Of a stretch of DNA of 64,000 nucleotides, positions 37,551 to 63,430 are shown in pieces. The DNA is from Prevotella sp. GTDB lineage: Bacteria; Bacteroidota; Bacteroidia; Bacteroidales; Bacteroidaceae. Location: contig JAFRYZ010000009.1 in assembly GCA_017442825.1 (NCBI GenBank), positions 1-64,000 on the forward strand, written 5' to 3'. A program made the translations under genes and the position numbers. Position 1 is the stretch's first letter. Every line of letters begins with the position of its first letter. The notes beneath the pieces are model-generated. The model was not told the origin of the DNA, searched no databases, and worked only from the letters and a program-made list of their open reading frames with translations.

Positions 37551-40500
37551 TCACTTAATCGCAACTTTTTTGCCATTTACGATATATATACCCTTTGGCA
37601 GTCCTTCGAGAGAGGTGCTGTTCTTGCGTACCAGCTGACCGCTGATGGTGTATACATTCGCAGGTTTGTTGGTCTGGATGATGCCATCCTCCTCAACACC
37701 GTTGATGTATGTCACCACGTCTTCCTTCTGTACAAATGGCTGCGGGTTGCCGGCTACGTTCCACTCATCAGCACCGAAGGCATCAGCCGAGAACATCATC
37801 ATGTCTGTTCGTGCACCGGTAGATGGAGAAGAAATCCATGCACGTCCTGCTGACATAGCAACAGGTCCTGCTGAGCGGCAAGCCAACTGTCCACCTGCGA
37901 TGTAGTAGTCACCATCCTTGATAGTGCTGCCATTGGTGAAGTCGCCAGTCATCGTGTAGTTGCCATTTTCCATAGCAGTAACACTCTCTGCTTCGATGCG
38001 CACGCCCTCGAAGATGGCACCTGTTTCCTTGTCAATCGTCTTAGATGGTCTGATGAGTACCGGAGTACCAGCAACAATCATCGGGTACCAGTGACGCTTG
38101 AAGTTAATCTTCGAGCCTTCAATGCCTTCGAAATGCAGTACGTCAACGCTTTCGCCGAAGACCTTCTGCAATTGAGTACGGCTGACGCTGAACGGCAGTA
38201 CGATACCAGCCAGCTTGCCCGCAGTGAACGCACGCTTGTAGGTGACGTTGCAGATTTCATCAGCGGCGATAGGACCGTCAGTTCCACCAGCCTTGATGGT
38301 AGCCACTATGTTGTCAGTGTTGTCAGCGACGGTCACGCTCTTTGCCTCTGTCTCGTTTGATGGCTGGAAGCGGAAGCCGCGAACACCGAGTTTCGTGCGG
38401 AAGCCGAAGAGGTAGTAGCTCTTGCCACCCTTCACGTCGAAGTTGTAGCGGACGTATCCGCCGGAAGGCATCACGTAGCCGTAACCTGTCAGACCGAGAT
38501 TGCTCAGCATGGTCTTCACGTCGCCATCAGGAACTTCGAACGGTTCGATGGCATCGCCTGCACCCTTGCCGTCCAAGTAGTTGTTGTACATCGCATAGAT
38601 CTTATTCGACTCTTCTGTGGTATAGTAGATGTTGGTGACACCCAGCTGTTTTTCGTCCTTCGGTGTCCACTTGCCAACACCCTGCAGTTTGTCCCAGTTG
38701 CTGCTCAGTCGTGTTGACGACTTGATACCTCTGTTCGAAGATACCGGGATGCTGTTGCCCTGTTCATCGAACAGATATACAGGGCGCAGACGCATGAAGG
38801 CGTCACAGAACTCGCCGTCGTCGGTGTAGTTCAGACCACCCTGCTGCAACAGCCAGATGGTGAGCTGTCCGTCGCGCTCAGGCTCGAAGCGTACCATGTC
38901 GCCCTGTGCAGGCAGCTTGAAGGTGCGGTCGTGCAGCGCAAGCGTTGATGTGTTCTGCGGCTCCTTGCCACTCTCGTCCCAGGCGTCGATGACGTTGCGG
39001 ATGCTGTAGTTTCCAATACCGTCGAGCGGAGTTCCCTTGGTGCTTTCGCTGATGTCGGCGTGGCTCCAACCTGCGTTGTCCATGCCTCCGAAGGTGGCGG
39101 TCAGGTACTTCACAGCCTTGGTGCTGCTGTTACCCGTCTGCTTGCCATAGACCACATAGCGGTCGTCGTTAGCCATCTTGCCGCCCGGCGTGGTCTCCTC
39201 GACAGCCTCCCAGAGGTTCTCCAGGTCACTTTCGAGCACGAACTCAACCGTAGTGACGGGGCTGGAAGCATCGTCGAGGATGGCAAGTGCCCTACCCGTA
39301 GTGTTCTTCATGATGAGGAACGGAGCACTCTCGTCACTGACATCAAACTCTCTTGAAGCACCTGGTGTCGGTGTAGAACCGTCGAGGGTGTAGTAGAGCG
39401 TAGAACCACCAGGACCTTCTATCTTCACACGGTCGTTAGGACCAACGACTACCGTTCCCTCAATGTGTCCTTCATCCCAAGTTGATCCATCATCGTCGCT
39501 GACATAGAATTTCGGCTGAGTGATGTTACCCGTGTAGACATATACGCCAGACGCAATAGGACTGATACGTCCTGTAGATGGTTCGTAGGCAATAGCCTTC
39601 ACCGTGGTGGAAGCACCGCTGATCTTAATCTTCTCACTACCATTGAACAGTTCACCAGTGGTTGGTGTCGGGTCGGTGCCGTCGGTGGTGTAGTAAACCT
39701 CCAGACCTGAGATGGCATCCTTCAGCGTCACGTTGACTGTAAGGTCTTTCGTGGTGCGCACGTGCGGGTTACCGCTCGGAGAGAGCACCGGTGCCTGCAG
39801 CGGGTCAAGCTTGGTATAGGTTTCGTAGACCTCCTTGCTGGTGTTCGTGCCTGTCGACGTGGGTTCGTGGTTCTCTGTAAACTCGTTCTGATCGTAAGCG
39901 AAGGCACGGACACGTGCGCTCTCTGTAAGTGTCAGCATGACAAACTCTCCCTTTTCCAGCAAGAAGCAGTTCTTCTGCTCACCTGAGGAAATGTAGGTTA
40001 CATTGTCATAGATGGGGTTCTTATGCTCTGTATCCGTAGATTCATACGTTGGTTCTTGAATCATGTACAGCGTATTCCAGTCCTTCGGCGCCTGGACTCT
40101 CACTGCCTGTTCGTCGGTGAAGTTACGTGTTGTAGGCGTGATGTTCGGAATCTGTTCCGATGGGTCGGTGAGGTAGATGGTAAAGGTCTCTGTAGCCTCT
40201 GCGGTATAGCCCTCTTTTTTGTTCACCGTCTTCTTATAGGTTCCACCCGGATAGGTGAAGGTGATGATTACCTGACCAGAGTGTGCACCGATGGTGACAA
40301 TACCATTTTCCACCGTAGTTCCACCTTCGCCACCGGCACCGTTGCGGTACTCAACCTCGTAGGTGACGGTCTCCTTCTGTGTAGCCGTCGTTTCGCCATT
40401 ATTCGATTCCGTATTGGTGATGTCGATATCCTTCTTCTCATCCTTATTATAATAGGTGATAGACTGGATAAGGTCGTCCAAGTTAATGGTTTGTGCGTCG

Positions 40501-43500
40501 TCTCCACTCTTGACTACATTGGTATAGTGTGAGTTCTTCGTGAGGTTCAACTCCGTAGCAAAGCGGTAGGTGTAAGTCAGGTTCACCTGACCGCCGATAT
40601 AGTAGTAGCCGTCAGCGTTCTTCAATACCTGCGTAGCGGAAATCTTACGTTTGTTTACCTCAGTAGAGAACACAGCCACAGAGCTTACTCCACCCAATAC
40701 ACCCTTCTCGTTGATGAGGTTAGGAGTGGTGTATGTGGAGGAAGAACTGAACTTACCATAGACGTAGGCTCCCTCGGCACCCACTACAGCCACCGTCTGA
40801 GCGGTACTCAGCGGGTTGGTCGCCGTGCTCGGTTCCAGTCTGATGGGTGCGCTCGCACTGGGTCGCCTGCTATCGTTGTTCAGCACCGTGAACTTCGCCT
40901 TGATGGGCGATCCTTCGAAGGTCTTCGTGGAGTTGTTGTAGGTGTGTACGTTCAGATAGAAGAACTTCTCATTTGCACCTCCCCACTCATTATCGTCCTC
41001 GATGAGTATCGGCATACCATTGAACTCAATCGGTGCATCGGGATATTCGTCCGTCGGGTCGTTATAGGTGTACTTATAGTAGTTCACACCGTTCTTCTTG
41101 CTGTTTGAGCTGACATTGCTGACAGAACCAGAGTTGATACCGGCGGCGACGTAGATGGTGTAGCCGTCATCGGGTTTCGCATAGATCATGCGGCCGTTGT
41201 ACATCTTCTCGGAGAAGATGGTTACCGATGACTCGTCGCCAGTACCTAAGTTATACTCGCTGGGGTCTACCTGCTGCTTGTACTCCGGATCCCAGTAGAA
41301 GGTCATGTGGAAGCCGGTTTCCTTCGCAACGACCTTGATAGTAGCCTGGTTGAAGGTATAGCTGGTCTGGTTGAACGGCCACTTACCATCAGTGCTTTCA
41401 TTCCACCCGCTCTTCTTCGTTGCCGTCACGGTGAATACAGCCTCAGTACCCACAGTAGCCTTGGTGCCGGAAGCATCCTTGGTTTTCACCACGCCGTTTC
41501 CGTCGACGCTGATATAGCTATCTTGGTCAGTAGGAGTGACGCTGTTCTTCGTGAAGGTGAAGTCGAAGTAATCGTTGATGGAACTATGGATGTCATCGCC
41601 AGAGGGATCAAACTCTGTGCCGTCGTTATATTTGAAGACGGGTTTCAGCGTGCGTTCCTCACCATACTGAATGTCGAGGTGGTCAACAGTAAGGTTAGAG
41701 CTTTTCACACCTGTGTAAGGATAGGTAGCAGTGACGATGTCACTGTAATAGGTGCTGCTACCCTTCTCATACTTCGTAACGGCATTCAGTACCATCGTGC
41801 GCTCGTTGACATCGGCAGCAGTGATAGTTGCTGTAGCAGTATTAGTGGTGAAGCCATTGTTGGCAGCAACAATCTGTGCACGGGTCATCGCAGCCGTAGA
41901 GTATGCCCAGTAGGTCGTGACGGTGCCGCCATCCTCTGCCTGGGTGGTCGTTACGGTAGGACTGAGGGCGGTAGTACCGTCATATTCTGTACCATCAGCA
42001 GGATTGGTGATGGTTGGTGCCGATACCGTAACAGCCGTGCCGACAACAATCCTATAGATCTTGAAGCCGCTGGACTCGGTGGTAAGTGTCACATTTTTAC
42101 TGCCGTCAGTAACCACGATGGTTGCATTGGCGTTCTCACCGATAATCTTGGTAACGCCACTACTTCCCTTCACGGTAGCATTCTCTAGTTCGAAGCCCTT
42201 CGTAGACGAACCGCTATAATAAACGGTCAGTTCCGTATTGGCTTCAAGCAAAGGCAACTGGACGGAGATGCTGCTGTTATCCAACTGCAAGTAACCGTCG
42301 GTACCACCAGTAGTAGTAGGCTTGAATACCTTGACGGCATTGTCTTGCAAGCTTCCACCGCTCATTCGACCGAACTGCATACCGTAAATCTGCTCGATAT
42401 TCGTAGTAGAATAACTTGCATAACTACCTTTGCTCGCAGTAAAGGCATTGCCGTAGATGGGCTTGCTGTTAGAGGTGGTTGAGTTCCAATCGGAAGAAGC
42501 GTCGTAGAGTGCCATGTCGGAAGAGTTCATCGTCGTGAAGTTCCAACGGTCGCCAGCAGATACCTGCTGAGCTACGAACGTTGCCGTAACGGTGACGGTG
42601 TCGTTAGGCATGGTGAACTGGTTGTTCGTCACGGTGACAGCCTGGCTGTTGCCGTCGGTGACGGTGATGGCGTTGAGGGCATAGCCGCTGGCAGGTGTGG
42701 CGGTAATAGTTACCGTTGCACCTTCCTCAGCATAAGAAGCCGGACTGGTGGTTACCGTACCGTTAGAAGGAGCGGTAATCTTAATCTTCGGCAGAGCCAC
42801 GAACGTTGCAGTCACGTCGACAGCGTATGCCGGCATGGTGAACGAACGGCTGTTGCCCGTACCACTGACGGGAGTCGTCGTAGTGTCACCATTCTTCGTA
42901 ACGGTGACAGTATTCAGTTTATATCCGTTATCTGGATTAGCGGTTACGGTTACGGTAGCACCCGCAGCGGCAGAAGCTGGGGCAGAGATAGAGCCATTGG
43001 TAAGCCCCGTGGCACAATTGATGTTATAAGTGGTAGCCGAAGACTCCGTCAGAATGACAAGCACGTCGTATTCCTTTCCAGAGGAGTTCGATATGGTGAT
43101 GTCTGAATTGAACGTCTTGGTAATCGTTGCAAGGTGTGCATTCTTGTCACTGGTATCATATGCTGTACCGTCAATAGTGATTGACTTTGCATCAGTACTG
43201 GCACATCTATAGATGACATCCATCTTGGAGAACGTCTTGCTACCTATATCAATGGTCATGGTATTGCCACTTGTCAGCTTGATGGCCTGCATCGTCCTAT
43301 TTGATGATGAACCTGAAGCATAGTTGCTTGTATTTGTCAAGTCAGCGTATGCAGGCGATGTGGAATTGTAATAGTAGTTTGCAGCGGTTGTTAAGGATGA
43401 TGAGATGTCTGTTGTTGCAGTTACCGTTGAACCGTCCGATTTGAGTACTTGATATTTTGCATTGTTCATTCCTGCTGTCAGCGGAACATTACATAAAGCG

Positions 43501-44735
43501 CTTAAAATATAGTAATTAGTAGAAGAACCAGAAGCGTTTACGGTAATGGTAGCTGTTTTCTCTATGGAAGAGTAAGAACCAGAGACGGCTGCCTGTGTAG
43601 CTTTTACGGTTGCCGTTCCTGCTGTTGTTGCAGTAAAGTTAGAGCCAGAGATGGTTGCACCTGTACCGTTGGCATTGGTCACGGTATAGGTCACAGCACC
43701 AGAACTATTAGAAGTCCACAACGTGCTGAGGTCAAGGGCTGAGCCTCCAATCGTATAGCTGCCGTTGTTAAACGTAGCAGTCGGCTCAATAGCGGCAGCA
43801 ACCGTTGTAAAGGTGATGCCGCTTAGTGCTGCATTTTCGTTGTTAGCGGCATCCTCTACTGCACCCGCTGCGGTGTTAAGAGTGTAGGATGTGCTGTTGT
43901 CGAAACCTGTATAGGGAATTGTGACAACGGCACCACTTGCACTGATATTTGCTGTAGTCAGTGAGCCTGCGCCAGTTGTTGTAAGTGTAAATTTACTTGC
44001 GTCTTTAATTGTTACGTTCTCACTGAACGTCAAAGTGATGTTACCACTTGTGGCAACATCTGTTGCGCCATTGCCTGGGTTAGCGCTGCTGAGAGTGGGA
44101 GGTGTGGTGTCGCTACCACCGCCAGAATCTTCAGTATAAACTTTGATGCTACCTATCCATGTTTCTTTACTATTTTTGGCTATCTGTATATATTGAAGTG
44201 GTGTATCAAAGGTTACGACAACAGTTGTTCCTGCTGCATCATATCCAGCCATATTGATGTTTGTCAACGATGCAAGAGAACTACCATCTCTTGTTGCACT
44301 AAAACCAGAGGATACGACTGCGTATGTTCCATCTTGGGTGGCACATGATTTGACATCACACGCATTGCTCGCAGAACTGCTGTTTGCCCATCCTGTAAAT
44401 TCAATCTTCTTGATATTTGCTGAGGTTGATGAAATATATAAAGGATTAGAAGAAATTTGGATGTAAACATTGTTTGTATTGGAACTTCCGCCCCATTTAT
44501 GAGATGAGGTTTTTGCATTGTTGCCGCTACTAATACTAATAGATCCAACTGTAGCATTCACTGAAGAACCAGATGTCCAATCAGATGAAGATTTGCTGAG
44601 TGTTAGCGTCTCTGCTGCCCACCCCGCTTGTGTGGTAGCGAGCAAACAAAGAAGTAGGAAGAGTCGGGTGAGGACACTCCCGTAGCGGCTTCCGCCTTGC
44701 GGAAGGTCACGCCATAAGTTTCTTGCTTTTTTCAT
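37551..44735 (-). CDS. Giant secreted modular surface protein 2 (2394 residues)
   Basis: The signal peptide (VLTRLFLLLCLLATTQAGWA) resembles that of giant protein 1. Modules in order: an N-terminal beta domain (~45-205); a BIG_5/SbsA-like Ig domain at ~208-313 (PTLSSANPGNGATDVATSGN); two bacterial-repeat domains at ~570-723 (AAAGATVTVTANPDNGYKL and EEGATVTITATPASGYAL); long Ig-like segments; chitobiase C-terminal-like modules with YYTTDGTDPTP and YYTLDGSTPTP at ~1663-1790. The ~500-residue region shared with giant protein 1 follows, and then the tail GLPKGIYIVNGKKVAIK. Low-complexity Ser/Thr/Gly runs are frequent. No catalytic motif is recognised. A role as an exported adhesin or glycan-binding protein is inferred. 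Confidence 0.82.
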   Translation of the reverse strand: MKKARNLWRDLPQGGSRYGSVLTRLFLLLCLLATTQAGWAAETLTLSKSSSDWTSGSSVNATVGSISISSGNNAKTSSHKWGGSSNTNNVYIQISSNPLYISSTSANIKKIEFTGWANSSSASNACDVKSCATQDGTYAVVSSGFSATRDGSSLASLTNINMAGYDAAGTTVVVTFDTPLQYIQIAKNSKETWIGSIKVYTEDSGGGSDTTPPTLSSANPGNGATDVATSGNITLTFSENVTIKDASKFTLTTTGAGSLTTANISASGAVVTIPYTGFDNSTSYTLNTAAGAVEDAANNENAALSGITFTTVAAAIEPTATFNNGSYTIGGSALDLSTLWTSNSSGAVTYTVTNANGTGATISGSNFTATTAGTATVKATQAAVSGSYSSIEKTATITVNASGSSTNYYILSALCNVPLTAGMNNAKYQVLKSDGSTVTATTDISSSLTTAANYYYNSTSPAYADLTNTSNYASGSSSNRTMQAIKLTSGNTMTIDIGSKTFSKMDVIYRCASTDAKSITIDGTAYDTSDKNAHLATITKTFNSDITISNSSGKEYDVLVILTESSATTYNINCATGLTNGSISAPASAAAGATVTVTANPDNGYKLNTVTVTKNGDTTTTPVSGTGNSRSFTMPAYAVDVTATFVALPKIKITAPSNGTVTTSPASYAEEGATVTITATPASGYALNAITVTDGNSQAVTVTNNQFTMPNDTVTVTATFVAQQVSAGDRWNFTTMNSSDMALYDASSDWNSTTSNSKPIYGNAFTASKGSYASYSTTNIEQIYGMQFGRMSGGSLQDNAVKVFKPTTTGGTDGYLQLDNSSISVQLPLLEANTELTVYYSGSSTKGFELENATVKGSSGVTKIIGENANATIVVTDGSKNVTLTTESSGFKIYRIVVGTAVTVSAPTITNPADGTEYDGTTALSPTVTTTQAEDGGTVTTYWAYSTAAMTRAQIVAANNGFTTNTATATITAADVNERTMVLNAVTKYEKGSSTYYSDIVTATYPYTGVKSSNLTVDHLDIQYGEERTLKPVFKYNDGTEFDPSGDDIHSSINDYFDFTFTKNSVTPTDQDSYISVDGNGVVKTKDASGTKATVGTEAVFTVTATKKSGWNESTDGKWPFNQTSYTFNQATIKVVAKETGFHMTFYWDPEYKQQVDPSEYNLGTGDESSVTIFSEKMYNGRMIYAKPDDGYTIYVAAGINSGSVSNVSSNSKKNGVNYYKYTYNDPTDEYPDAPIEFNGMPILIEDDNEWGGANEKFFYLNVHTYNNSTKTFEGSPIKAKFTVLNNDSRRPSASAPIRLEPSTATNPLSTAQTVAVVGAEGAYVYGKFSSSSTYTTPNLINEKGVLGGVSSVAVFSTEVNKRKISATQVLKNADGYYYIGGQVNLTYTYRFATELNLTKNSHYTNVVKSGDDAQTINLDDLIQSITYYNKDEKKDIDITNTESNNGETTATQKETVTYEVEYRNGAGGEGGTTVENGIVTIGAHSGQVIITFTYPGGTYKKTVNKKEGYTAEATETFTIYLTDPSEQIPNITPTTRNFTDEQAVRVQAPKDWNTLYMIQEPTYESTDTEHKNPIYDNVTYISSGEQKNCFLLEKGEFVMLTLTESARVRAFAYDQNEFTENHEPTSTGTNTSKEVYETYTKLDPLQAPVLSPSGNPHVRTTKDLTVNVTLKDAISGLEVYYTTDGTDPTPTTGELFNGSEKIKISGASTTVKAIAYEPSTGRISPIASGVYVYTGNITQPKFYVSDDDGSTWDEGHIEGTVVVGPNDRVKIEGPGGSTLYYTLDGSTPTPGASREFDVSDESAPFLIMKNTTGRALAILDDASSPVTTVEFVLESDLENLWEAVEETTPGGKMANDDRYVVYGKQTGNSSTKAVKYLTATFGGMDNAGWSHADISESTKGTPLDGIGNYSIRNVIDAWDESGKEPQNTSTLALHDRTFKLPAQGDMVRFEPERDGQLTIWLLQQGGLNYTDDGEFCDAFMRLRPVYLFDEQGNSIPVSSNRGIKSSTRLSSNWDKLQGVGKWTPKDEKQLGVTNIYYTTEESNKIYAMYNNYLDGKGAGDAIEPFEVPDGDVKTMLSNLGLTGYGYVMPSGGYVRYNFDVKGGKSYYLFGFRTKLGVRGFRFQPSNETEAKSVTVADNTDNIVATIKAGGTDGPIAADEICNVTYKRAFTAGKLAGIVLPFSVSRTQLQKVFGESVDVLHFEGIEGSKINFKRHWYPMIVAGTPVLIRPSKTIDKETGAIFEGVRIEAESVTAMENGNYTMTGDFTNGSTIKDGDYYIAGGQLACRSAGPVAMSAGRAWISSPSTGARTDMMMFSADAFGADEWNVAGNPQPFVQKEDVVTYINGVEEDGIIQTNKPANVYTISGQLVRKNSTSLEGLPKGIYIVNGKKVAIK

Positions 44736-53880: not shown

Positions 53881-54160
53881 TAATTCTCCAGACTCGCTGA
53901 CGCTCGAAGGAGCGGCAAAGCCGAAAGACAATTGATAATTGACTCAACTTTCGGAAGTTACCGCGACTAAAGCCGCTTGGAAGTTATCGCGGTCTTTGAC
54001 CGCTTGGAAGTTAAAAAGGAGTTATCGCCCCTTCGGGGCTTGGACGTTAGATTTCCTTGTTTGAAGATACTATCGTCCTTTTAACTTCGCCGCATAGCGG
54101 CATAACTTCCTTTTAACTCCAGCCGCGTAGCGGCAAACTCCCGAAACTTAAATAATTGAT
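53881..54160. repeat. Array of varying hairpins with constant flanks
   Basis: After a copy of CTCCAGACTCGCTGACGCTC (also at 46955) come units of the form AAGTTA-stem-loop-stem-CTTGG. The stems are CGCGG/CCGC, GCCCC/GGGGC, GCCGC/GCGGC and CCGC/GCGG. The segment then ends in AATTGATAATTGATGG at the next start codon. The hairpin cores differ while the joins repeat. No gene is seen. Confidence 0.75.
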
Positions 54161-54165
54161 AATTG

Positions 54166-56403
54166 ATGGCAACATGGATATGGTATCCCGGAGACTTTGA
54201 AGTATGGTTAGGTAACCGGTTTAACAACAGGCGGACGGAGAGGGGGGCGATGTTTCCTCCTTTCTGGAAGCAGGACAGTCATTGGGTGACGGTGGAGTTT
54301 TCGAAAGCTTTTACGCTGGAGGAGGCGGAGGACATTGCCATTGGTTGTGAGGGACGGTACAACCTGATGTTGGACGGGAAGTTGCAGTTCCTGGCTGGGC
54401 GCAATACCTTCACCATTCCTGCCGGAGAGCACAAACTGAACTTGAAGGTGTGGAACCAGACCTCTCCGCCAGCATTGTTTATTGACGGGAAGACCGTGAA
54501 GACCGACAGCACGTGGCTGGCAACCTACGAGGACAAGATATGGATTGACGAGAATGGTGTTGCCCACGGGTCGGGCATCTATGTGCCTGCAGCTTCGTGG
54601 AACTTCGACAAGATGGAAACACCGCCTTCCAACTACCAACTGGAAAGAAAGGTGCAACGGCCGGTGGGTTGCGATGAAATCGCAACAAACGGGACGGAGG
54701 GGGTAACGGGCTGCGACAAATTTGCAACAAACGGGTCGGCAAGGGAGGCAAGAAGCACCGTTGCAACAAACGGGACAGGCAGGCTTTATGACTTTGGGAA
54801 AGAGACTTTCGGCTACTTGAGGGTGAAAGGGCTGAAAGGAAGGATACGTATCTATTATGGTGAGAGCCGTGAAGAGGCGCTGGACAAAGAGCACTGCGAA
54901 ACGCTGGACGTGATGGCGGGTTGCGACAAAGTCGCAACAAACGGAACGAAAAGAAACGGGACAGTAAGGGAGGCACCGAACGGGACAGCAGGGGAGGTGA
55001 CGAACGACGACGGACAGCTGGGCAGTAAGGCGTTCCGCTATGTATATATAGAAACGGAAGAGGGGAGTCGTTATGACGAGGTGTATATGGAATATGAGTA
55101 TGCACCTTTTGATGTTGACAAGAGTGGTTCGTTTTGTTGCAGCGATGGACTGTTGAACCAGATATGGGAGGTAGGAGCCTACACCATGGACCTGACGACG
55201 CGCGAGTTCTTTATGGACGGCATCAAGCGTGACCGATGGACATGGAGCGGTGATGCCATACAGTCGTATCTGATGAACTACTATCTGCGTTTCGATACGG
55301 AGTGTGTGAAGCGTACCATACGTCAGTTGCGCGGTAAAGACCCCGTGACGGCACACGTCAACACGATCATGGACTATACGTTCTATTGGTTTAAGTCGGT
55401 GCTGGACTACTATCTCTACACGGGAGACATTGACTTTGTGCGGGAGATATACCCGAAGATGCAGACGCTGATGGACTATGTGCTGGGGCGGACCAACGAC
55501 GATGGTATGGCAGAGGGACAAGCCGACGACTGGATTTTTGTGGATTGGGTGGATTTCCCGATGCACAAGCGAGGGGTTCTCTGTTTCGAGCAGATACTCT
55601 TCTGCAAGGCTTTGGAGACCATGCAACGGTGTGCGGAGGAATTGCGGAGCCATCCGCTGGAGCAAGCCCCGCAGGGTAGTATCACCGATGAGGCTTATGC
55701 AGCTGATGCCGAACGCTATCGGGAGTTGGCAGAACAGTTGTGGATCAAGGTGAAAAACCTTTTCTGGGACAAGGAAAAGAAGACTTTTATGCACGCTGTT
55801 GAAGACGGGAAGATGAATGAGCAAGTGACGAAGTTCCCGAATATGTTTGCCATGATTTACGGCTTTGCCAGTGAGGAAGAACAACGGCAGATCATGGAGC
55901 GGGTGATGTTGAACCCGCAGGTGGACGCTATCACAACGCCCTACATGCGCTTCTATGAGTTGGAGGCACTCTGCAGGATGGGACGGCAGCAAGAGGTGTT
56001 GAAGGAAATACGCGATTACTGGGGCGGTATGTTAGCGGAAGGAGCCACCACGTTTTGGGAGAAATACAACCCTGGAGAGAAGGGAACAGAGCATCTGGCG
56101 ATGTACGGCAGACCATACGGTAAGAGTCTCTGTCATGCGTGGGGAGCCAGTCCGGTGTATCTCTTGGGCAGGTACTATCTGGGTGTCAGTCCGCTGGCAC
56201 CTGGTTATGCGGAATATGAGGTGCGCCCTGTTTTGGGTGACCTGCAATGGATGGAGGGCGCCGTACCAACACCCTTTGGCTTGATACATGTGAAGATGAC
56301 CACCGACACCATCACCGTGGAGGCTGATGGCGGCAAGGGCATCTTGATTGCCCCTGACGGACAACGAATAGACATTCAAGGAAAGACAACCTATCATTAT
56401 TAA
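54166..56403 (+). CDS. GH78-like alpha-L-rhamnosidase, no signal peptide
   Basis: This is a 745-residue protein. Beta-sandwich modules occupy ~1-320. The (alpha/alpha)6 catalytic domain at ~325-690 contains FFMDGIKRDRWTWSGD (~347), the acidic motif of the family, and DWIFVDWVDFPMHKRG (~460). A C-terminal beta domain follows (SPLAPGYAEYEVRPVLGDLQ). The enzyme releases alpha-linked rhamnose. The start MATWIWYPGDFEVW has no signal peptide, unlike its neighbours, so it is either cytoplasmic or its signal was lost next to the repeat at 54150. Two stretches (~168-205 and ~252-285) are built from short palindromic elements and are unlikely to belong to the fold. Confidence 0.82.
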   Translation: MATWIWYPGDFEVWLGNRFNNRRTERGAMFPPFWKQDSHWVTVEFSKAFTLEEAEDIAIGCEGRYNLMLDGKLQFLAGRNTFTIPAGEHKLNLKVWNQTSPPALFIDGKTVKTDSTWLATYEDKIWIDENGVAHGSGIYVPAASWNFDKMETPPSNYQLERKVQRPVGCDEIATNGTEGVTGCDKFATNGSAREARSTVATNGTGRLYDFGKETFGYLRVKGLKGRIRIYYGESREEALDKEHCETLDVMAGCDKVATNGTKRNGTVREAPNGTAGEVTNDDGQLGSKAFRYVYIETEEGSRYDEVYMEYEYAPFDVDKSGSFCCSDGLLNQIWEVGAYTMDLTTREFFMDGIKRDRWTWSGDAIQSYLMNYYLRFDTECVKRTIRQLRGKDPVTAHVNTIMDYTFYWFKSVLDYYLYTGDIDFVREIYPKMQTLMDYVLGRTNDDGMAEGQADDWIFVDWVDFPMHKRGVLCFEQILFCKALETMQRCAEELRSHPLEQAPQGSITDEAYAADAERYRELAEQLWIKVKNLFWDKEKKTFMHAVEDGKMNEQVTKFPNMFAMIYGFASEEEQRQIMERVMLNPQVDAITTPYMRFYELEALCRMGRQQEVLKEIRDYWGGMLAEGATTFWEKYNPGEKGTEHLAMYGRPYGKSLCHAWGASPVYLLGRYYLGVSPLAPGYAEYEVRPVLGDLQWMEGAVPTPFGLIHVKMTTDTITVEADGGKGILIAPDGQRIDIQGKTTYHY
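54668..54776 (+). repeat. In-frame palindromic elements, copies 1-3
   Basis: Copy 1 (54668-54695) has GTTGCGAT/ATCGCAAC arms around GAA plus AAACGGGAC. Copy 2 (54710-54737) is degenerate. Copy 3 (54760-54776) is a half element. All are read in the same phase and give (C)D-x-(I/F/V)-ATNG(T/S). Confidence 0.88.
54920..54962 (+). repeat. In-frame palindromic element, copy 4
   Basis: GTTGCGAC/GTCGCAAC arms around AAA at 54920-54938 are followed by AAACGGAAC and a second AAACGGGAC. It is in the same codon phase as copies 1-3 and is translated GCDKVATNGT then KRNGT. Confidence 0.88.
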
Positions 56404-56409
56404 AGTGAG

Positions 56410-57318
56410 ATGAAGAAGCATACCTTATTATATTTAGTCTTCGTGGGTTTACTGATGTGTGCCTGCAAGAGTGAGGTTTTTGTTTATTCCTCCTTTCACG
56501 AGCCAGCCACCGACGGCCTGCGCTTCCTGACCAGTAAGGACGGCATACACTGGGATTCGATACCCGGCACATGGCTGACGCCGGCAGTGGGAAAGCAGCG
56601 TGTGATGCGTGACCCCAGCATACAGTCCACCCCCGACGGCACTTTCCATCTGGTGTGGACTTCCAGTTGGAGAGGAGACCTGGGTTTCGGCTATGCCTCG
56701 TCGAAAGACCTGAAGCACTGGACGAAAGAAGAGTTTATTCCCGTGATGACCGATACGACGACCGTCAATGTGTGGGCACCAGAGCTGTTCTGGGATGATA
56801 CCCGAAAGGAGATGATGGTGATTTGGGCAAGTTGCATTCCGGGGAAATTTGCCCGTGGCATTGAGGACGAGAAGAACAACCACCGTCTGTATTACACGAC
56901 CACCAGGGATTTCAAGACCTTTGCTCCGGCACAGTTGCTGATAGACCCCGGTTTCAGTAGCATCGATGCTACGTTGGTGAAGCGCGGTGAGCGTGACTAT
57001 GTGATGGTGTTGAAAGACAACACCCGCCCTGAGCGTGACCTGAAGATTGCTACGGCACGAGATCCGCGTGGCCCGTGGAGTGCTGCCGGTCCTGCTTTTA
57101 CGGAGAAACTGACCGAAGGACCGGCGACAGTACGGGTGAAAGAAGGGTGGGTGATTTACTACGACCGCTACGGCAACAAAGATTTTGGAGCTGTTTTCAC
57201 AAAAGACTTCAAATCTTTTGAAGATTGGTCGAAGAAGGTCAGCATTCCTCCCTTGCACAAGCATGGAACTATCTTCAAGGCGAAACGAATCATCGTAGAT
57301 GATTTAATTCATAATTGA
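56410..57318 (+). CDS. GH43-like lipoprotein glycosidase
   Basis: This is a 302-residue protein with a lipoprotein signal (GLLMCAC, lipidated Cys near residue 19). The five-bladed propeller pattern of GH43/GH117-type enzymes is seen: RVMRDPSIQSTPDGTFHLVW (~66-85, catalytic Asp), TVNVWAPELFWDD (~118-130) and FTEKLTEGPATVRVKEGWVI (~236-255, likely catalytic Glu). It probably removes arabinose- or related side chains at the cell surface. It starts six bases after the GH78-like gene. The last residues (DDLIHN) come from an AATTCATAATTGA repeat that provides the stop. Confidence 0.78.
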   Translation: MKKHTLLYLVFVGLLMCACKSEVFVYSSFHEPATDGLRFLTSKDGIHWDSIPGTWLTPAVGKQRVMRDPSIQSTPDGTFHLVWTSSWRGDLGFGYASSKDLKHWTKEEFIPVMTDTTTVNVWAPELFWDDTRKEMMVIWASCIPGKFARGIEDEKNNHRLYYTTTRDFKTFAPAQLLIDPGFSSIDATLVKRGERDYVMVLKDNTRPERDLKIATARDPRGPWSAAGPAFTEKLTEGPATVRVKEGWVIYYDRYGNKDFGAVFTKDFKSFEDWSKKVSIPPLHKHGTIFKAKRIIVDDLIHN

Positions 57319-57500
57319 TTCAACTTTCGGAAGTTAAAAGGGAGTTAAAAAGGAGTTAAAAAGGAGTTAAATGGACATCAGAACCTCCAAATAAAGAAAA
57401 GTATCGTCCCTTTCACTCCAGCAGCGAAGCTGCTAACTCCCCTTCCATTCCTTTCCACTCCAAAGTTGAGCAATAAGCGAAACTTGAATAATTGATAATT
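57319..57500. repeat. AAGGAGTTAAA repeat and AATTGATAATTG block
   Basis: Three to four AAAAGGAGTTA units (57333-57370) are followed by CAGCAGCGAAGCTGCTAACT (hairpin) and then AATAATTGATAATTGAAACA before the next gene. No coding potential is seen in these 200 bases. Confidence 0.75.
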
Positions 57501-57521
57501 GAAACACAATGATTATAACGT

Positions 57522-60500
57522 ATGAATAGACCTTTTTTATGTGTTCTTATTACGCTGATAGTTGCTGTATCTGCAACGGCACAAGTACACTATAGCGGTA
57601 GCCAGTTGAGTAATCCCAACCGGCATGACGGAGGCTTGTCGCCTGTAGTTGGTGTGCACAACATTCAGGTGATGCGTGCCAACCGGGAACATCCGGCAGC
57701 AGAGAATGGCGGTGGGTGGACGTATAACCACCAGCCGATGATGGCATATTGGAACGGACGGTTCTGGTTGCACTACCTCAGTGACCCGAAAGACGAGCAG
57801 GTTCCGCCATCACGCACGCTTCTCTTGTCGAGTGCCGATGGCTATACATGGACGACGCCTGAGATTCTTTTTCCCGAATACGACGTGCCGGAAGGGTTTA
57901 AAAAAGCTGGCGTTGAGGGTGAAGCCCACAACTTGAAAGCGGTGATGCACCAGCGACAAGGTTTTTACGTATCGAAAGACAACCACCTCTATGCGTTAGG
58001 AGGTTATGGTGTCTGCCTGAACAAGAAAGACCACAACAACGACGGTAACGGCATAGGGCGCGTTATCCGTGAGATTAAGCGTGACGGGTCGTTAGGAAAA
58101 ATCTATTTCATCTACTATAACCACGATTTCAACGAAAAAAATACCGATTTCCCCTATTATAAGAAAGGTGACAAATACCTGCGTAAAGCTTGTGAAGAAA
58201 TTCTTTCCAATCCCCGCATGCTGATGGGATGGGTAGAGGAAGCCGACCGCAACGAACCCCTGATACCCTTGCAGAAACCCTATAAAGCCTATTGCGACTA
58301 TACTCTTCCTGACGGAAGGCTGGTTGCTTTGTGGAAACATGCGCTGACCAGCATCAGCAGTGATGGCGGAAAGACATGGTCGGAGCCTGTTGAGCGTGCA
58401 CCTGGATTTGTCAACAGCAATGCGAAGATATGGGGACAGCGGTTGAGTGACGGCTCGTATGCCACCATCTATAATCCTTCCGAGTTCCGTTGGCCGTTAG
58501 GCATTTCCCTGTCGGAAGACGGACTGGACTATACGACGTTGAACCTCGTTTGCGGTGAGGTGCCGCCGATGCGCTATGGCGGCAACTACAAGAGTTACGG
58601 TCCGCAGTATGTGCGCGGCATCTTGGAAGGCAACGGTATGCCAAAAGACAGCGATCTGTGGGTGACCTGGTCGATGAACAAGGAGGATATGTGGGTATCG
58701 CACATCCCTGTTCCCGTACGGACAACTGCCCATGCCCATGCTGCCGATGACTTCAGTAAAATAGGACGAATAGCAGAACTCTCACAATGGAACATCTATT
58801 CACCGAAGTGGGCACCCGTCAGTCTTGATGGACAATGGCTGGTGCTGGCAGATGAAGACCCGTTTGACTATGCCCGTGTGGAGCGGAAGATACCAGCTAC
58901 GAGTGAGTTGAAGGTATCCTTCGACCTGCAGGCAGCACAAGACGACCAGGGATTGTTGCAGATAGAGTTCTTGGACGAGGCAGGAACCGCCTGTTCGCGC
59001 ATAGAACTGACTGCCGAAGGCATCATGCAGGCAAAGGGTGGAGCTCGTTATGGCGGACTGGGCAAGTACGAGGCAGGCAAGGTCTATCATATTGAGGTGG
59101 AGTTATCGGTAAGCAAACGTACTGCCACTTTCTTTGTGGACGGTAAAAAAGCCGGTCAGCGTATGTTCTATGCTCCTGTGAAAGCCATCGAGCGCATCAT
59201 GTTCCGTACAGGCAGTCAGCGTACTTTCCCCGATGTGGATACACCGGCAGACTGGGATGGCATCTTGGACCATGCCGGTGAGCATGCCCCCAAAGCCGTC
59301 TTCCGCATCGCTCACGTGAAGACCGTTTCAACAGACGAGAATGTCGGTGCTGCTTTTCTGAAATACGAAGACTTCAAGCATTATGTCGATGACTTCAACA
59401 CGATGGAGCCCGAAGGCATCGTCCAGGCGATACCCAACGGTAAGGCTTGGGAGTGGATGAAGGAGAATGTGCCGCTGTTTGAATGTTCGCAAAAAAACTT
59501 TGAAGAAATCTATTGGTTTCGTTGGTGGACCTTGCGCAAGCATCTGCGCAAGACCGATGACGGCAAGTATGCCATGACGGAGTTTCTCGTCAACCGCAGC
59601 TATGCGGACAAATACAATCTCATTGCCTCGGGAGTAGGGCATCATATCCATGAGGCTCGATGGTTGCGCAATCCGAAGTATCTCGATGAGGTGATGGAAA
59701 CGTGGTATCGCGGTAACGGCGGACAGCCGATGAAGAAGATTTGGAACTACAGTTCGTGGATGCCCGCTTCGTTGTGGGACCGTTATCTCGTGGATGGTCG
59801 CAAAGACTGGATTATCGGTATGCTTCCCGACTTGGAACGTGAATACCAGCATTGGGATACCACCCATCGGTGGATAGAGGATGGACAACGAACCCTCTTC
59901 TGGCAAGCCGACGTACAGGACGCGATGGAGGAAACCATCAGTGGCGGCAGGAAAAAGCAGTATGCCCGTCCGAGCATCAACAGCTATATGTACGGCAATG
60001 CCCGTGCGATAGCCCATATCGCAGCCTTGAAAGGTGATGAAGCCTTGGCACAGACCTACAACCAACATGCCGACACCATCAAGACGTTGGTGGAGCGTCG
60101 CCTGTGGAACGGAAAACAGCAGTTTTTCGAGACCCTCCGTAAAGACTCCTCGTCGAATGTGCGTGAGGCTATCGGTTTTCTGCCTTGGTATTTCAACCTG
60201 CCCAGTCGTGATGTGCGTTATGAGAATGCCTGGCTCCAGTTGGCAGATGTGGAAGGTTTCAGTGCCCCGTATGGGTTGACAACGGCAGAAAGGCGTCATC
60301 CGCAATTTCGTTCGCATGGTGTAGGAAAATGTGAATGGGACGGTGCCGTTTGGCCTTTTGCCACCAGTCAGACGCTCACAGCCCTTGCCAACTACCTTTA
60401 CGAACGGCGTAGCAACCAGATTTATCCGAAGTTGAACCAAGTTGTCCAGATGGATTCCGTCTTTTTCGATGAAATGGAGAAATATGTGCAGAGTCAGCAC

Positions 60501-60857
60501 ATGCGCGGTAAACCCTATATCGGCGAATATCTCGATGAAACCACAGGTTTTTGGTTGAAAGGAGACCAAGAACGCTCACGTTATTATAATCATTCCACTT
60601 TTTGCGACCTTGTCATCAGCGGACTCGTCGGTCTGCGCCCGCAAGCAGGTAACAAGTTGCAGGTGTGTCCATTGATTCCTCAGGGGAAATGGGACTGGTT
60701 CTGTTTGGATCGTGTACGCTATCACGGTCATGACATCACTATCCTTTGGGACAAGGACGGTTCCCGTTACCATGTGGGCAAGGGATTTTTCATCTTTGTC
60801 GATGGAGAAAAGAAAGCCCATCGTGAAATCTTAAACTGGCTGTCATGCGAACTATAA
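57522..60857 (+). CDS. Two-part GH143/GH142-like glycosidase
   Basis: This is a 1111-residue secreted protein with signal peptide PFLCVLITLIVAVSATAQ. Residues ~40-400 form a sialidase-like six-bladed propeller (SISSDGGKTWSEP Asp-box-like near 285, TLLLSSADGYTWTTPE near 103). About 410-620 looks like a lectin-type beta-sandwich (LLQIEFLDEAGTACSRIEL). About 640-1111 is an (alpha/alpha)6 domain (IYWFRWWTLRKHL, HHIHEARWLRNPKYLDE, SINSYMYGNARAIAHIAALK, GKCEWDGAVWPFATSQTL). This order matches the enzyme of rhamnogalacturonan-II loci that combines a DHA hydrolase (GH143) with a beta-L-arabinofuranosidase (GH142). The assignment is by architecture and memory; a GH33/GH63-like alternative is possible. 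It overlaps the next gene by 13 bases. Confidence 0.68.
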   Translation: MNRPFLCVLITLIVAVSATAQVHYSGSQLSNPNRHDGGLSPVVGVHNIQVMRANREHPAAENGGGWTYNHQPMMAYWNGRFWLHYLSDPKDEQVPPSRTLLLSSADGYTWTTPEILFPEYDVPEGFKKAGVEGEAHNLKAVMHQRQGFYVSKDNHLYALGGYGVCLNKKDHNNDGNGIGRVIREIKRDGSLGKIYFIYYNHDFNEKNTDFPYYKKGDKYLRKACEEILSNPRMLMGWVEEADRNEPLIPLQKPYKAYCDYTLPDGRLVALWKHALTSISSDGGKTWSEPVERAPGFVNSNAKIWGQRLSDGSYATIYNPSEFRWPLGISLSEDGLDYTTLNLVCGEVPPMRYGGNYKSYGPQYVRGILEGNGMPKDSDLWVTWSMNKEDMWVSHIPVPVRTTAHAHAADDFSKIGRIAELSQWNIYSPKWAPVSLDGQWLVLADEDPFDYARVERKIPATSELKVSFDLQAAQDDQGLLQIEFLDEAGTACSRIELTAEGIMQAKGGARYGGLGKYEAGKVYHIEVELSVSKRTATFFVDGKKAGQRMFYAPVKAIERIMFRTGSQRTFPDVDTPADWDGILDHAGEHAPKAVFRIAHVKTVSTDENVGAAFLKYEDFKHYVDDFNTMEPEGIVQAIPNGKAWEWMKENVPLFECSQKNFEEIYWFRWWTLRKHLRKTDDGKYAMTEFLVNRSYADKYNLIASGVGHHIHEARWLRNPKYLDEVMETWYRGNGGQPMKKIWNYSSWMPASLWDRYLVDGRKDWIIGMLPDLEREYQHWDTTHRWIEDGQRTLFWQADVQDAMEETISGGRKKQYARPSINSYMYGNARAIAHIAALKGDEALAQTYNQHADTIKTLVERRLWNGKQQFFETLRKDSSSNVREAIGFLPWYFNLPSRDVRYENAWLQLADVEGFSAPYGLTTAERRHPQFRSHGVGKCEWDGAVWPFATSQTLTALANYLYERRSNQIYPKLNQVVQMDSVFFDEMEKYVQSQHMRGKPYIGEYLDETTGFWLKGDQERSRYYNHSTFCDLVISGLVGLRPQAGNKLQVCPLIPQGKWDWFCLDRVRYHGHDITILWDKDGSRYHVGKGFFIFVDGEKKAHREILNWLSCEL

Positions 60858-63268
60858 AGAGCCTTTTTCTGTTTTTTGTCCTGTCTGGTATAGCTCTTCC
60901 TGTTGAGGCGCAGCAATGGATAGGTGCCATCACAAAGGCAGATGCCCACATCCCGGACGGTCGTTCCTTCTCCGGCGGGAAGTTGAAAGGGCAGGCAAAG
61001 CTGTTATGGGAGGGTGTTGACAGTTTGTCGCGGCGCAGTATCGTCGTTGCCAAGACCTTCAAGGCACAAGGCGTTGTGCGGAAAGCAGAGGCGAAGATCT
61101 GTGGATTGGGTTTCTATGAGTTTACCATCAATGGAGAGAAGGTAGGCGAGTCTGTGTTTGCCCCTTTGTGGAGCGACTACGACAAGACAGTATGGTATAA
61201 CACCTACGACGTAACGAAACAGTTGAAGAAAGGGAAGAACAGCCTTGCCGTGCTGTTGGGCAACGGCTTCTATAACGAGCAGGGCGGAAGGTATGCCAAG
61301 ATGCGCATCTCTTTCGGTCCGCCCACTCTTTGGTTGGATATGACGGTGACGTATCAAAACGGTACTACCGAACATATTGTCAGTGACGGCTCGTGGGCGT
61401 ATAGGTCCAGTCCGATTACCTTCAACAGCATCTATGGTGGCGAGGACTACGATGCACGGCTAGAAGGAACAGGCAACTGGCAACCGGTAGTGGTGCAAGA
61501 AGGACCGAAAGGAGTACTTCGCGAACAGATTGCCGAGCCCGTGAAAATCATGGAGCGGTTCGGGGTTGTTCGTTTAGTATGTTGCGATACAATCGCAACA
61601 AACGGGACACAAAAGCAAGATGGGGACGCAATCGCAACCAACTGGACGAAGAAGGTAGGAAGGAAAGCGCCTTTTGTAGTTTTCGACATGGGGCAGAACC
61701 TGGCAGGTTTTCCAGAGATTACCGTCAATGGGAAGGCTGGACAGACGGTGAAGCTCATGGTTGGCGAGACGTTGACAGCCGACGGGCATGTGAACCAACG
61801 ACAGACAGGTCGTCCACATTATTATGTCTATACGTTGAAGGGAGAGGGTGTGGAAACATGGCATCCACATTTCTCCTATTACGGTTTTCGTTATATTGAG
61901 GTAGAAGGTGCCGATTGTTCTGTCTTGGGTGGAAAGCAGACAGACCAGCAGTTGCCACAGTTGCTGGATTTGAAATCTTGTTTTGTATATAACAGTGCCC
62001 GTAAAATAGGAGAATTTGAATGTTCCAATCCGCTTTTCAATGAGACCTACCGCATCATCGACCGTGCCATCCGCAGCAATTGGCAGGGCGTATGGACCGA
62101 TTGTCCGCACCGTGAGAAGTTGGGGTGGCTGGAACAAGACTGGCTGAACGGGGAGGGTCTCATCTACAACTACGACTGCCGTAGGATGATAGAACAGACC
62201 ATGCAGGTCGTTGCCGATGCCCAGCATGCCGACGGCAGTATGCCAGAGATAGCGCCCGAATATACCGTTTTCGAAGGTTCGTGGGCGAAACCATTTTTGG
62301 AGTCGCCGGAGTGGGGCGGTGCCTTGGTGGCACTTCCCATGCTCTACAGGAGCTATTACGGTGACGACAAGCTGATACAGCGCTACTACGACCACATGAA
62401 ACGGTATGTCGATTACCTTCATACGCAGGACTCCTGCTATATCCTGAACCAAGGACTCGGCGACTGGTATGACTACGGTGAAGGGAAGGCTGGCTTTTCC
62501 AAGAATACACCCGTGACTTTGGTGGCAACAGCCCACTATGCCCTGTGGACCTACTACACGGCTTTTGCCGCAGAACAGTTGGGCAAGGCTGGGGATGTGG
62601 AAACGTTGAAAGCCCGCACCAGGAAGATTATTGATGCCTTCAACAAGGAGTTCTATCATCCCGACACCCATCAATATGGTACAGGCAGTCAGGCTTCCAA
62701 TGCCATTCCCCTTTCCTTAGGTTTCGTTCCGAAGGAATTGAAAGACTCCGTTTTGGCTCAGCTGGTGGCAGATATCCATGCCCATGGCGACCGTTTGACG
62801 ACAGGCGATGTCGGTACGCGCTACCTGTTCGATGCTCTATGGAAAAACCATCAAGGCGAACTCTTTTATAAAATACTGAACCACTACGATGTGCCCGGCT
62901 ACGGCTATCAGATTAAGAAAGGAGCCACGACGCTTACCGAACAATGGAATCCAGAACATGGTGCTTCGCAAAACCACTTCATGATGGCACATGTCAACAA
63001 CCATCTGATACCCCACATCGTAGGCATTGACATCATCAAAGGTAAGGTTGCCGTGATTCGTCCGCATGTATTGGGCGACATGACCTGGGCACGCGGAGCT
63101 ACCGAGGTGAACGGTAGGCGTGTAGCCGTCAGTTGGAAGGTGGAAGACGGCAAGTTCATCATCGACATCGACGTTCCTAACCCCGTTCTTCTTAGGTTGC
63201 CTTCAGGTAAACGTATCGAGGTGACCACGCCCGGACACCATCAGTATGTGGAAGTTTGGAAGAGATGA
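60845..63268 (+). CDS. Secreted GH78 alpha-L-rhamnosidase
   Basis: This is an 807-residue enzyme with signal peptide MRTIKSLFLFFVLSGIALPV (cleavage near EAQQ). An N-terminal carbohydrate-binding-like module (~45-240; GLGFYEFTINGEKVGESVFA) is followed by a Bac_rhamnosid domain (VVFDMGQNLAGFPEITVNGK) and the (alpha/alpha)6 catalytic domain. The catalytic domain carries the catalytic acid motif TDCPHREKLGWLEQD (~418) and GLGDWYDYGEG (~538). A C-terminal beta domain follows. It hydrolyses terminal alpha-L-rhamnose. Residues ~247-272 (CCDTIATNGTQKQDGDAIAT and following) are made of the palindromic element. It is translationally coupled to the preceding gene by a 13-base overlap. Confidence 0.92.
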   Translation: MRTIKSLFLFFVLSGIALPVEAQQWIGAITKADAHIPDGRSFSGGKLKGQAKLLWEGVDSLSRRSIVVAKTFKAQGVVRKAEAKICGLGFYEFTINGEKVGESVFAPLWSDYDKTVWYNTYDVTKQLKKGKNSLAVLLGNGFYNEQGGRYAKMRISFGPPTLWLDMTVTYQNGTTEHIVSDGSWAYRSSPITFNSIYGGEDYDARLEGTGNWQPVVVQEGPKGVLREQIAEPVKIMERFGVVRLVCCDTIATNGTQKQDGDAIATNWTKKVGRKAPFVVFDMGQNLAGFPEITVNGKAGQTVKLMVGETLTADGHVNQRQTGRPHYYVYTLKGEGVETWHPHFSYYGFRYIEVEGADCSVLGGKQTDQQLPQLLDLKSCFVYNSARKIGEFECSNPLFNETYRIIDRAIRSNWQGVWTDCPHREKLGWLEQDWLNGEGLIYNYDCRRMIEQTMQVVADAQHADGSMPEIAPEYTVFEGSWAKPFLESPEWGGALVALPMLYRSYYGDDKLIQRYYDHMKRYVDYLHTQDSCYILNQGLGDWYDYGEGKAGFSKNTPVTLVATAHYALWTYYTAFAAEQLGKAGDVETLKARTRKIIDAFNKEFYHPDTHQYGTGSQASNAIPLSLGFVPKELKDSVLAQLVADIHAHGDRLTTGDVGTRYLFDALWKNHQGELFYKILNHYDVPGYGYQIKKGATTLTEQWNPEHGASQNHFMMAHVNNHLIPHIVGIDIIKGKVAVIRPHVLGDMTWARGATEVNGRRVAVSWKVEDGKFIIDIDVPNPVLLRLPSGKRIEVTTPGHHQYVEVWKR
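61581..61647 (+). repeat. In-frame palindromic elements, copies 5-6
   Basis: 61581-61599 is GTTGCGAT/ATCGCAAC around ACA, followed by AAACGGGAC to 61608. A half copy ATCGCAACCAACTGGAC lies at 61631-61647. Copy 5 has the same codon phase as in the other GH78 gene, giving CDTIATNGT; the half copy gives AIATNWT. Confidence 0.88.
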
Positions 63269-63430
63269 GAGTCTAGAGATGAGAGTTTAGAGACTAGAGT
63301 TCTTTCAGTCGCTTCGCTTTGTGTAATCGGCTCTGCCGCTTCGCTAGTCGAAGAAAGCGAGCAAGCTCGAACGAGAGACGAGAGTCTAGAGATGAGAGTC
63401 GAGAGACTAGAGTTTAGAGATGAGAGTTAA
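63269..63430. repeat. GAGAGTCTAGAGAT repeat array
   Basis: Imperfect repeats of GATGAGAGTCTAGAGA / GAGAGACTAGAGTT surround a TTCTTTCAGTCGCTTCGCTT block with GCGAGCAAGCTCG. The array relates to the inverted one at 7600-7720. It separates the GH78 gene from the last gene. Confidence 0.75.

Follow-up and report, generated by a model that had tools for sequence, protein, structure and literature searches.

In-frame palindromic repeats in two Prevotella rhamnosidase genes as probable copies of a REP-like element, with a RAYT-like protein family as candidate transposase

Two alpha-L-rhamnosidase genes on one Prevotella contig raise the question of how a DNA palindrome comes to be translated, several times and in one codon phase, inside protein-coding sequence. 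The genes lie within positions 1 to 64,000 of contig JAFRYZ010000009.1 (Prevotella sp., GenBank assembly GCA_017442825.1), and this whole stretch of 64,000 nucleotides (nt) is called the window below. The repeat is a 28-nt unit, GTTGCGAY-NNN-RTCGCAAC-AWACGGRAC, with in-frame copies inside both GH78-type genes. It is reasoned here that the repeats are probably a mobile hairpin of the Prevotella-type genus, resembling repetitive extragenic palindromes (REPs) and moved by an HUH transposase of the REP-associated tyrosine transposase (RAYT) type.

The inventory across the two genes comprises three full, two degenerate, one half and two tail-only copies. The last two were absent from the preliminary description of this DNA, which had been made from the sequence alone. 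The genes and copies are as follows (aa, amino acids).

54163-56403, plus strand: host gene A, GH78-like alpha-L-rhamnosidase, open reading frame of 746 aa, begun at the ATG at 54166 in the preliminary description
54668-54695, plus strand: full copy 1 in gene A, GTTGCGATGAAATCGCAAC + AAACGGGAC, with 8-bp arms and a GAA loop, read as GCDEIATNGT
54710-54737, plus strand: degenerate copy 2 in gene A, GCTGCGACAAATTTGCAAC + AAACGGGTC, read as GCDKFATNGS
54760-54776, plus strand: half copy in gene A, GTTGCAAC + AAACGGGAC, read as VATNGT
54920-54947, plus strand: full copy 3 in gene A, with an AAA loop and tail AAACGGAAC (1 base off), read as GCDKVATNGT
54954-54962, plus strand: tail-only unit in gene A, AAACGGGAC, read as NGT
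54978-54986, plus strand: tail-only unit in gene A, GAACGGGAC, read as NGT
60845-63268, plus strand: host gene B, GH78 alpha-L-rhamnosidase, open reading frame of 807 aa
61581-61608, plus strand: full copy 4 in gene B, with an ACA loop and tail AAACGGGAC, read as CCDTIATNGT
61620-61647, plus strand: degenerate copy 5 in gene B, left arm lost, right arm ATCGCAAC + CAACTGGAC, read as AIATNWT

Direct reading of the sequence confirmed that palindromic units lie in both GH78-type genes, as first described, and the translations of proteins A and B confirmed their common codon phase. All the sites listed at that time are present, although the one given at 61631 is just the right arm of the degenerate copy at 61620-61647. 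The right-arm pattern TCGCAACAAACGG occurs seven times in the 64 kb at up to 2 mismatches against a shuffle mean of 1.86, and none of 100 shuffles reaches seven; six of the seven matches are listed copies. For the tail by itself (AAACGGGAC, up to 1 mismatch) there is no excess in the window (19 matches against 14.4, a count reached in 12 of 100 shuffles). Hairpins of the form GTTG, 3 to 5 more base pairs, short loop and CAAC occur in the window solely at the three full copies.

The Pfam matches support the GH78-type label first given to both hosts. Protein A matches PF21209 (E 3.1e-73) and PF17389 (E 1.1e-25), and its nearest solved structure is 3cih_A (E 4e-257); protein B matches PF17389 (E 9e-89), PF08531 (E 3.5e-49) and PF05592 (E 5.1e-26). 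A homologue search in 60 related genomes per protein at E 1e-60 gave matches in 13 genomes for A and 22 for B, the own genome counted. The insert residues are present in none of the 12 homologues of A and none of the 14 homologues of B that were aligned. The insert positions are linkers that vary in length among homologues anyway, and the site of full copy 3 is a second length-variable loop among the aligned homologues of gene A. Residues 173-205 of protein A (33 residues) align to 4 residues of 3cih_A, and the insert stretch of protein B coincides with gaps of 6i60_A, where full copy 4 sits between the Bac_rhamnosid_N match (ending at residue 237) and a concanavalin-like match (starting at residue 278). 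Alignment with GH78 homologues and placement on a structure were among the checks that the preliminary description had proposed, and both came out in its favour. The same can be said of the likeness that it drew to Rickettsia palindromic elements (RPEs): palindromic DNA is translated in frame in variable linkers and is absent from the aligned homologues.

A further host, an aspartate aminotransferase of genome G250, holds an element copy in a loop. The corresponding junction was searched for in 99 genomes around G250, and 31 sequences were examined (30 loci and the window's own gene). A loop motif found the site in 18 of them and missed it in 13. One of the 18 carries the element, one (G058) a different hairpin, GTTGTGG-CACCG-CCACAAC, at the position of the G250 copy, one (G033) a possible element remnant, and the other 15, the window's own enzyme among them, an ordinary short loop. 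In-frame palindromic inserts absent from homologues, a trait of RPEs, are found in each of the hosts compared, that is two GH78 proteins and one aminotransferase.

The element is by no means confined to this contig. A search for its 24-nt core, with up to 2 mismatches allowed, was positive in 142 of the 398 genomes of the genus, compared with 2 matches in total for a reversed control pattern. Individual genomes hold up to 34 pattern matches (both strands counted, so that a symmetric copy may count twice). Like REPs, the element is therefore a short palindrome dispersed in many copies per genome. The exact 28-nt unit was found in 27 stretches among 84,980 species genomes, all of them Bacteroidales by title (Prevotella or Prevotellaceae 17, Bacteroidaceae 7, Bacteroidales 2, Muribaculaceae 1). 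In a sample of 257 genomes of the order, only two besides the window's own (G000) have matches: G608 with 3 copies at up to 1 mismatch, and G519 with one match at 2 mismatches. Clean copies outside the genus are therefore present in one of 256 other genomes (G608). Among IMG/VR contigs, a pattern scan gave 19 stretches (L242-L260) with the element core, which may be held by phages or by misbinned host DNA.

The window's genome (2.3 Mb, 79% complete) contains two further core matches at up to 2 mismatches. A copy at G000:C39:57582 is intergenic, just upstream of an apparent transporter gene, and a copy at G000:C61:104195 lies in frame in a long open frame that, to judge by its sequence, resembles a nonribosomal peptide synthetase with a reductase domain. 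The early remark that no intergenic copy was seen holds within the window; the genome does have one.

The anatomy of the element was derived from 147 unique copies, obtained by discarding sites that had fewer than 60 bases of context and those that repeated a 57-base context already present; they come from five copy-rich genomes and search listings and are not a random sample. The search patterns fixed the stem and the initial six foot bases, so that conservation of these parts is no evidence. What stands out is a flanking G/C pair and one foot, A-[ATG]-A-C-R-G-R-A-C, the other side being a weaker mirror image. A foot scoring at least 9 of 10 is present on one side only in 92 of the 147 copies, on both sides in 17 and on neither in 38. 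The foot end RAC, which lies outside the search patterns, is present in 62 of 113 copies from the loci that these patterns retrieved and in 22 of 22 in G176. A second class, with stem GTTGCTGY/RCAGCAAC and the same foot, also occurs in 142 of 398 genomes; this CTG core gives more chance matches than the CGA core described so far (21 control matches versus 2). At some loci (L051, L264, L280, L047 and L069) the tail or right arm after a hairpin copy has grown in tandem, in units of about 12-24 bases such as QQTG or VATNGTH repeats.

Coding context was scored at 144 sites with a codon model applied to the flanks alone, the element being excluded (3 of the 147 copies lacked 90 flanking bases on a side). 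Both flanks are coding in one frame at 49 of 144 sites, and 49 are expected if positions within these loci are drawn at random. The idea of the preliminary description that a coding context is selected for, or drives the spread, is not supported, and neither is a preference for coding DNA. The in-frame coding fraction, with the random value in brackets, is 0.50 (0.34) in G071, 0.70 (0.51) in G250, 0.88 (0.46) in G379 for 8 copies, 0.29 (0.45) in G392 and 0.25 (0.29) in other loci. The four copy-rich genomes other than G176 together have 33 of 58 copies in coding context against 26 expected, a slight, non-significant excess (p 0.06). REPs lie mostly outside genes, a trait matched in G176, where all 22 copies score as non-coding; in G071, G250 and G379 together 29 of 44 are in frame in coding sequence.

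Where the element is translated, the choice of frame is far from random. Among 74 confidently coding sites (joint score), the peptide is CCDxxATNG in 33, VATxSQQT in 39 and LRxSRN in 2, whereas one third would be expected for the last (p 7e-11, an optimistic value, some sites being the same gene in different species). A stop codon lies inside 2 of the 74. The preliminary description held that equal frequency in all frames and in non-coding DNA would speak against a translated element; the frames are unequal, 72 of 74 sites falling to two peptides, while non-coding copies occur at random expectation. Being palindromic, the element gives the same peptides whichever strand is read. Judged by sequence reading, the hosts include leucyl-, isoleucyl- and valyl-type tRNA synthetases, UvrA, MnmG, aspartate aminotransferase, threonine synthase and urocanase.

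Weak Y1_Tnp matches in copy-rich genomes led to a candidate agent, a family of long HUH proteins with the motifs MPDHxH and YxxDNPRR. These are the HUH and tyrosine-NP motifs that characterize RAYTs (also called TnpAREP), and the MPDHxH and Y-x-x-DNPRR columns are invariant in nine sequences. The open frames are mostly about 340-430 aa long, with a conserved part after the tyrosine. The best NCBIfam match of three scanned members is NF047646, REP-associated tyrosine transposase (E 9e-11 to 1e-7). With PF01797, four of four scanned members fall under the cut-off, and two members (G392:C13 and G141:C108) exceed it in another scan. A generic IS200-like transposase was rejected as the agent, since Y1_Tnp separates copy-rich from copy-free genomes weakly: it is over cut-off in 13 of 20 copy-rich versus 9 of 20 copy-free genomes (p 0.34), and present at E 0.001 in 16 of 20 versus 9 of 20 (p 0.048), several of the weak matches being the RAYT-like family itself. 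G379, a complete genome with 16 element matches, has no Y1_Tnp match, and the CGA core was found in none of the 30 loci returned by the Y1_Tnp search.

A profile (A1) built from the nine RAYT-like proteins matches 233 of the 398 same-genus genomes. Element and RAYT-like family occur together in 120 genomes, the family only in 113, the element only in 22 and neither in 143 (odds ratio 6.9, p 1e-15, with phylogeny and completeness uncorrected). At E<=1e-130 the odds ratio is 13 (p 7e-21, again with phylogeny uncorrected). A RAYT-like match is present in 43 of the 44 genomes with at least 5 element matches, being partial or weak in G000, G071 and G326. In the order sample, the family occurs in 9 of 256 other genomes at E 1e-30, and G608, the sole out-of-genus genome with clean element copies (3), is one of them.

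Many RAYT-like genes carry a perfect in-frame hairpin between the HUH motif and the tyrosine, which reads VATxSQQTG, VAVxQQQT or VALxTQQT according to its stem. Among 66 loci examined, 42 HUH-to-tyrosine segments were delimited by motif, so that a locus is missed unless a single open frame contains both motifs, and some hairpins of the set (e.g., L234) fall outside the linker. A stem of at least 8 bp is present in 35 of the 42 segments, and 29 of 42 beat all of 40 codon shuffles. GTTG-CAAC hairpins lie within the gene in 27 of 58 RAYT-hit loci, some of which overlap; in 339 kb of control loci, fetched for other proteins, there are 2 such hairpins. A selected set of 19 internal hairpins shows pairing in 97.7% of cells and changes on both sides in 30 cells, and neither value is reached in 500 shuffles. 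Near-repeats and hairpins that were broken or absent (L274, L279, L302) are omitted from this set, so that the paired percentage is raised; the changes on both sides concern four stem positions and three stem classes, so that few of them are independent. Further hairpins inside RAYT-like genes at L309, L311, L315 and L317 (TCCCGAAT..ATTCGGGA or similar), and hairpins TGCTGCAAC..GTTGCAGCA alongside such genes at L318 and L382, may be additional element classes.

RAYT genes are typically flanked by their own REPs, and some of the present genes are. At L300, L293 and L301 the stem of the internal copy recurs in hairpins immediately beyond the gene, and two hairpins lie beside a fragment at L316. 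A flanking hairpin is present in 10 of 58 loci, four of which may show the internal copy on a cut contig. For 37 perfect TGTTG-CAACA hairpins located inside RAYT genes or next to them, none of the 74 feet is GTAG or GTGG, the sequences found at the 5' foot of GTAG-type REPs. The commonest are CGTC (14), CGTT (12), TGTT (11) and AGTC (8), and 60 of 74 fit [ACT]GT[ACT]. CGTC-type REPs are marked by CGTC (or TGTC or CCTC) at one end, an 8-9 bp stem and a loop of 4-5 bases; here CGTC makes up 14 of the 74 feet and TGTC 2.

Based on these observations, it appears that the element would work as follows. It consists of an 8-10 bp stem, a short loop and a foot on one or both sides, which reads AWACRGRAC outward, and GTYCYGTWT before the stem on the other strand. 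The RAYT-like HUH tyrosine transposase would recognize the hairpin and copy it to new sites, probably as single-stranded DNA; within its own gene, such a hairpin often occupies an in-frame position between the HUH motif and the catalytic tyrosine. Insertion would make no distinction between coding and intergenic DNA. Copies inside genes would survive, nearly neutrally, if the frame is kept, the linker is tolerant and the reading is CCDxxATNG or VATxSQQT. The two rhamnosidase genes would have received insertions into length-variable linkers, followed by decay and small duplications. The preliminary interpretation as a whole thus stands for the translated palindromes and is not borne out for selection or spread through a coding context, and it did not foresee the likely agent, a RAYT-like family.

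Several observations weigh against this account. All three proteins scanned miss the NF047646 cut-off, scoring 32-42 of 80 bits, about half. The association statistic ignores phylogeny and genome quality, and 22 of the 142 element-positive genomes lack a RAYT match at E 1e-10, including G115 with its 12 element matches. The window's genome, with its 79% complete assembly, has just a C-terminal RAYT-like piece. Between the best RAYT and the dispersed copies there is no agreement in stem class (8 v 11 genomes, p 0.52), in a test in which one RAYT was typed per genome though several exist, and a broken hairpin (L279) was counted as CTG; stem-class matching is therefore unsupported. G392 has 29 CGA matches, yet no CGA-type hairpin in its four RAYT loci, and the G608 RAYT has no CGA hairpin inside, like most of the more distant members. 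The aminotransferase loop has gained 18 nt net instead of 28, which implies that host bases were lost or that the loop was reshaped later, and no empty and filled pair with exact insertion junctions was obtained there. Finally, loops are mixed in G379 (4/8), G392 (at most 4/14) and half of G250, and the three full copies of the window have three loops (GAA, AAA and ACA), with no sign of recent copying. The C-terminal RAYT-like part of the window's genome stands alone at L296 (G000:C63:78964-79428), beside an apparent DNA polymerase I gene; no Pfam family over cut-off covers this part in four full-length relatives.

Some of these points would also suit an RPE-like insert that spreads independently of the RAYT family, by another enzyme or by template switching at hairpins, with RAYT genes merely frequent hosts. 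RAYT genes do act as hosts, and the element-positive genomes without a RAYT match, together with stem classes that do not follow the best RAYT, fit such an insert. We nevertheless regard it as unlikely in view of the genome-wide association, the recurrence of the hairpin in the HUH-to-tyrosine segment across several stem classes, and same-stem hairpins beside some RAYT genes as compared with 2 per 339 kb in control loci.

The loops bear on a second alternative, in which the palindrome is a binding site for a host protein (for chromosome organization, transcription or mRNA stability), formed and kept locally by selection rather than copied. The perfect stem would suit a binding site, as would the mixed loops of several genomes and the copies of G176, which show a coding deficit (0/22 against a random fraction of 0.23, p 0.003). 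In G071, however, the loop is TCA or its complement in 16 of 16 copies, and in G176 it is GAC in 15 of 22 and GGC in 6 of 22; TCA makes up 9 of 20 in G250. Shared loops, complete in G071 and found in most copies of G176, make recent copying within these genomes plain, unlike in the window's genome, and such sharing is explained by copying and not by site selection. With several stem classes as well, the CGA and CTG cores each in 142 of 398 genomes, a host binding site is very improbable.

Selection may instead act on the inserted peptide, whose NGT or NWT sequons or polar linkers would tune the enzymes, the DNA palindrome being a by-product. NGT units adjoin the copies in gene A, the tail grows in tandem elsewhere (L047, L051, L264 and L280), and two of the three peptides are tolerated. 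The hosts are unrelated, though, and the element occurs in both orientations and in two peptide frames; the stem bases of the classes differ in matching pairs, and intergenic copies exist, all of which leaves this explanation exceedingly improbable. Chance or low-complexity growth confined to the two genes, for which the short units and a tail no commoner than in shuffles might speak, has a negligible probability, given that no shuffle reached seven right-arm matches and that a family in 142 of 398 genomes against 2 control matches refutes it.

The RAYT-moved hairpin can be compared with known systems. Like RPEs, to which it is likened by description, it is a palindromic unit translated in frame in unrelated proteins; unlike them, it belongs to another host phylum. 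The Prevotella-type element is shorter than RPE-1. Like REPs as presented in the main texts of earlier reports, it has in-frame copies within genes, including DNA repair and tRNA synthetase genes, and it shares with REP/RAYT systems short dispersed hairpins in several classes and an enzyme of the HUH-Y1 type (PMC3733652, PMC6006769). The main text of PMC3733652 describes GTAG and CGTC REPs, with intragenic copies, and equates RPE-4 and RPE-6 with CGTC repeats, which according to that text seem to be without a dedicated transposase. The Prevotella-type element differs from GTAG REPs in its feet (0/74 GTAG or GTGG) and from CGTC elements in having a candidate enzyme. According to the main text of PMC6006769, TnpAREP genes of subclass 2.4, common in Cyanobacteria and Bacteroidetes, hold REPs between HuH and Y with the frame undisturbed. 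The in-frame hairpin described here has the same place in the transposase gene, a likeness of position and no subclass assignment. HUH single-tyrosine transposases are shared with IS200/IS605, and hairpin recognition is expected from the family (PMC6006769); a difference is that the generic Y1_Tnp model tracks element copies weakly. Compared with curated RAYTs, the Prevotella-type proteins are distinguished by their length of about 340-430 aa, their conserved post-tyrosine part and scores at about half the NCBIfam cut-off.

A bolder version, which we consider possible but doubtful, is a self-tagged REP system. The transposase would keep its own recognition hairpin, translated, between the halves of its active site; the hairpin would diverge by matched DNA changes that leave the peptide unconstrained, and copies would spread through coding DNA without penalty beyond the choice of frame. 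Since the feet belong to the CGTC/CGTT type rather than to GTAG, the enzyme family would be the missing mobilizer of CGTC/RPE-type elements.

In-frame REPs in genes and inside RAYT genes have already been published for other lineages. The element family, its non-GTAG feet and the frame rule are new, as are the greater length of the RAYT-like proteins and the element's spread to housekeeping genes. Prevotella is mentioned in neither main text (PMC3733652, PMC6006769), and a search of one open-access library found no paper on the element in Prevotella.

The window contains other repeats and genes. At 57332-57371, intergenic, overlapping head-to-tail copies of an 11-base unit (about GGAGTTAAAAA) are present, and its reverse complement recurs at 54103-54120. 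A repeat AGAGATGAGAGTCTAGAG, in three copies in register, runs from the end of gene B into intergenic DNA (63261-63399). Two giant open frames on the minus strand, 27558-33824 (2088 aa) and 37551-44735 (2394 aa), perhaps encode surface or secreted proteins and share a near-identical C-terminus, VRKNxTSLEGLxKGIYIVNGKKV.

Until now, in-frame palindromic inserts were an oddity of Rickettsia and of a small number of REP-rich genomes. In a genus abundant in gut and rumen, such an element now comes together with a candidate enzyme and with many copies that housekeeping genes tolerate, and as a result the movement of such elements and their acceptance by proteins become testable. The finding is also a warning that some variable loops of Prevotella-type enzymes, glycoside hydrolases included, may be the remains of mobile DNA and not adaptation.

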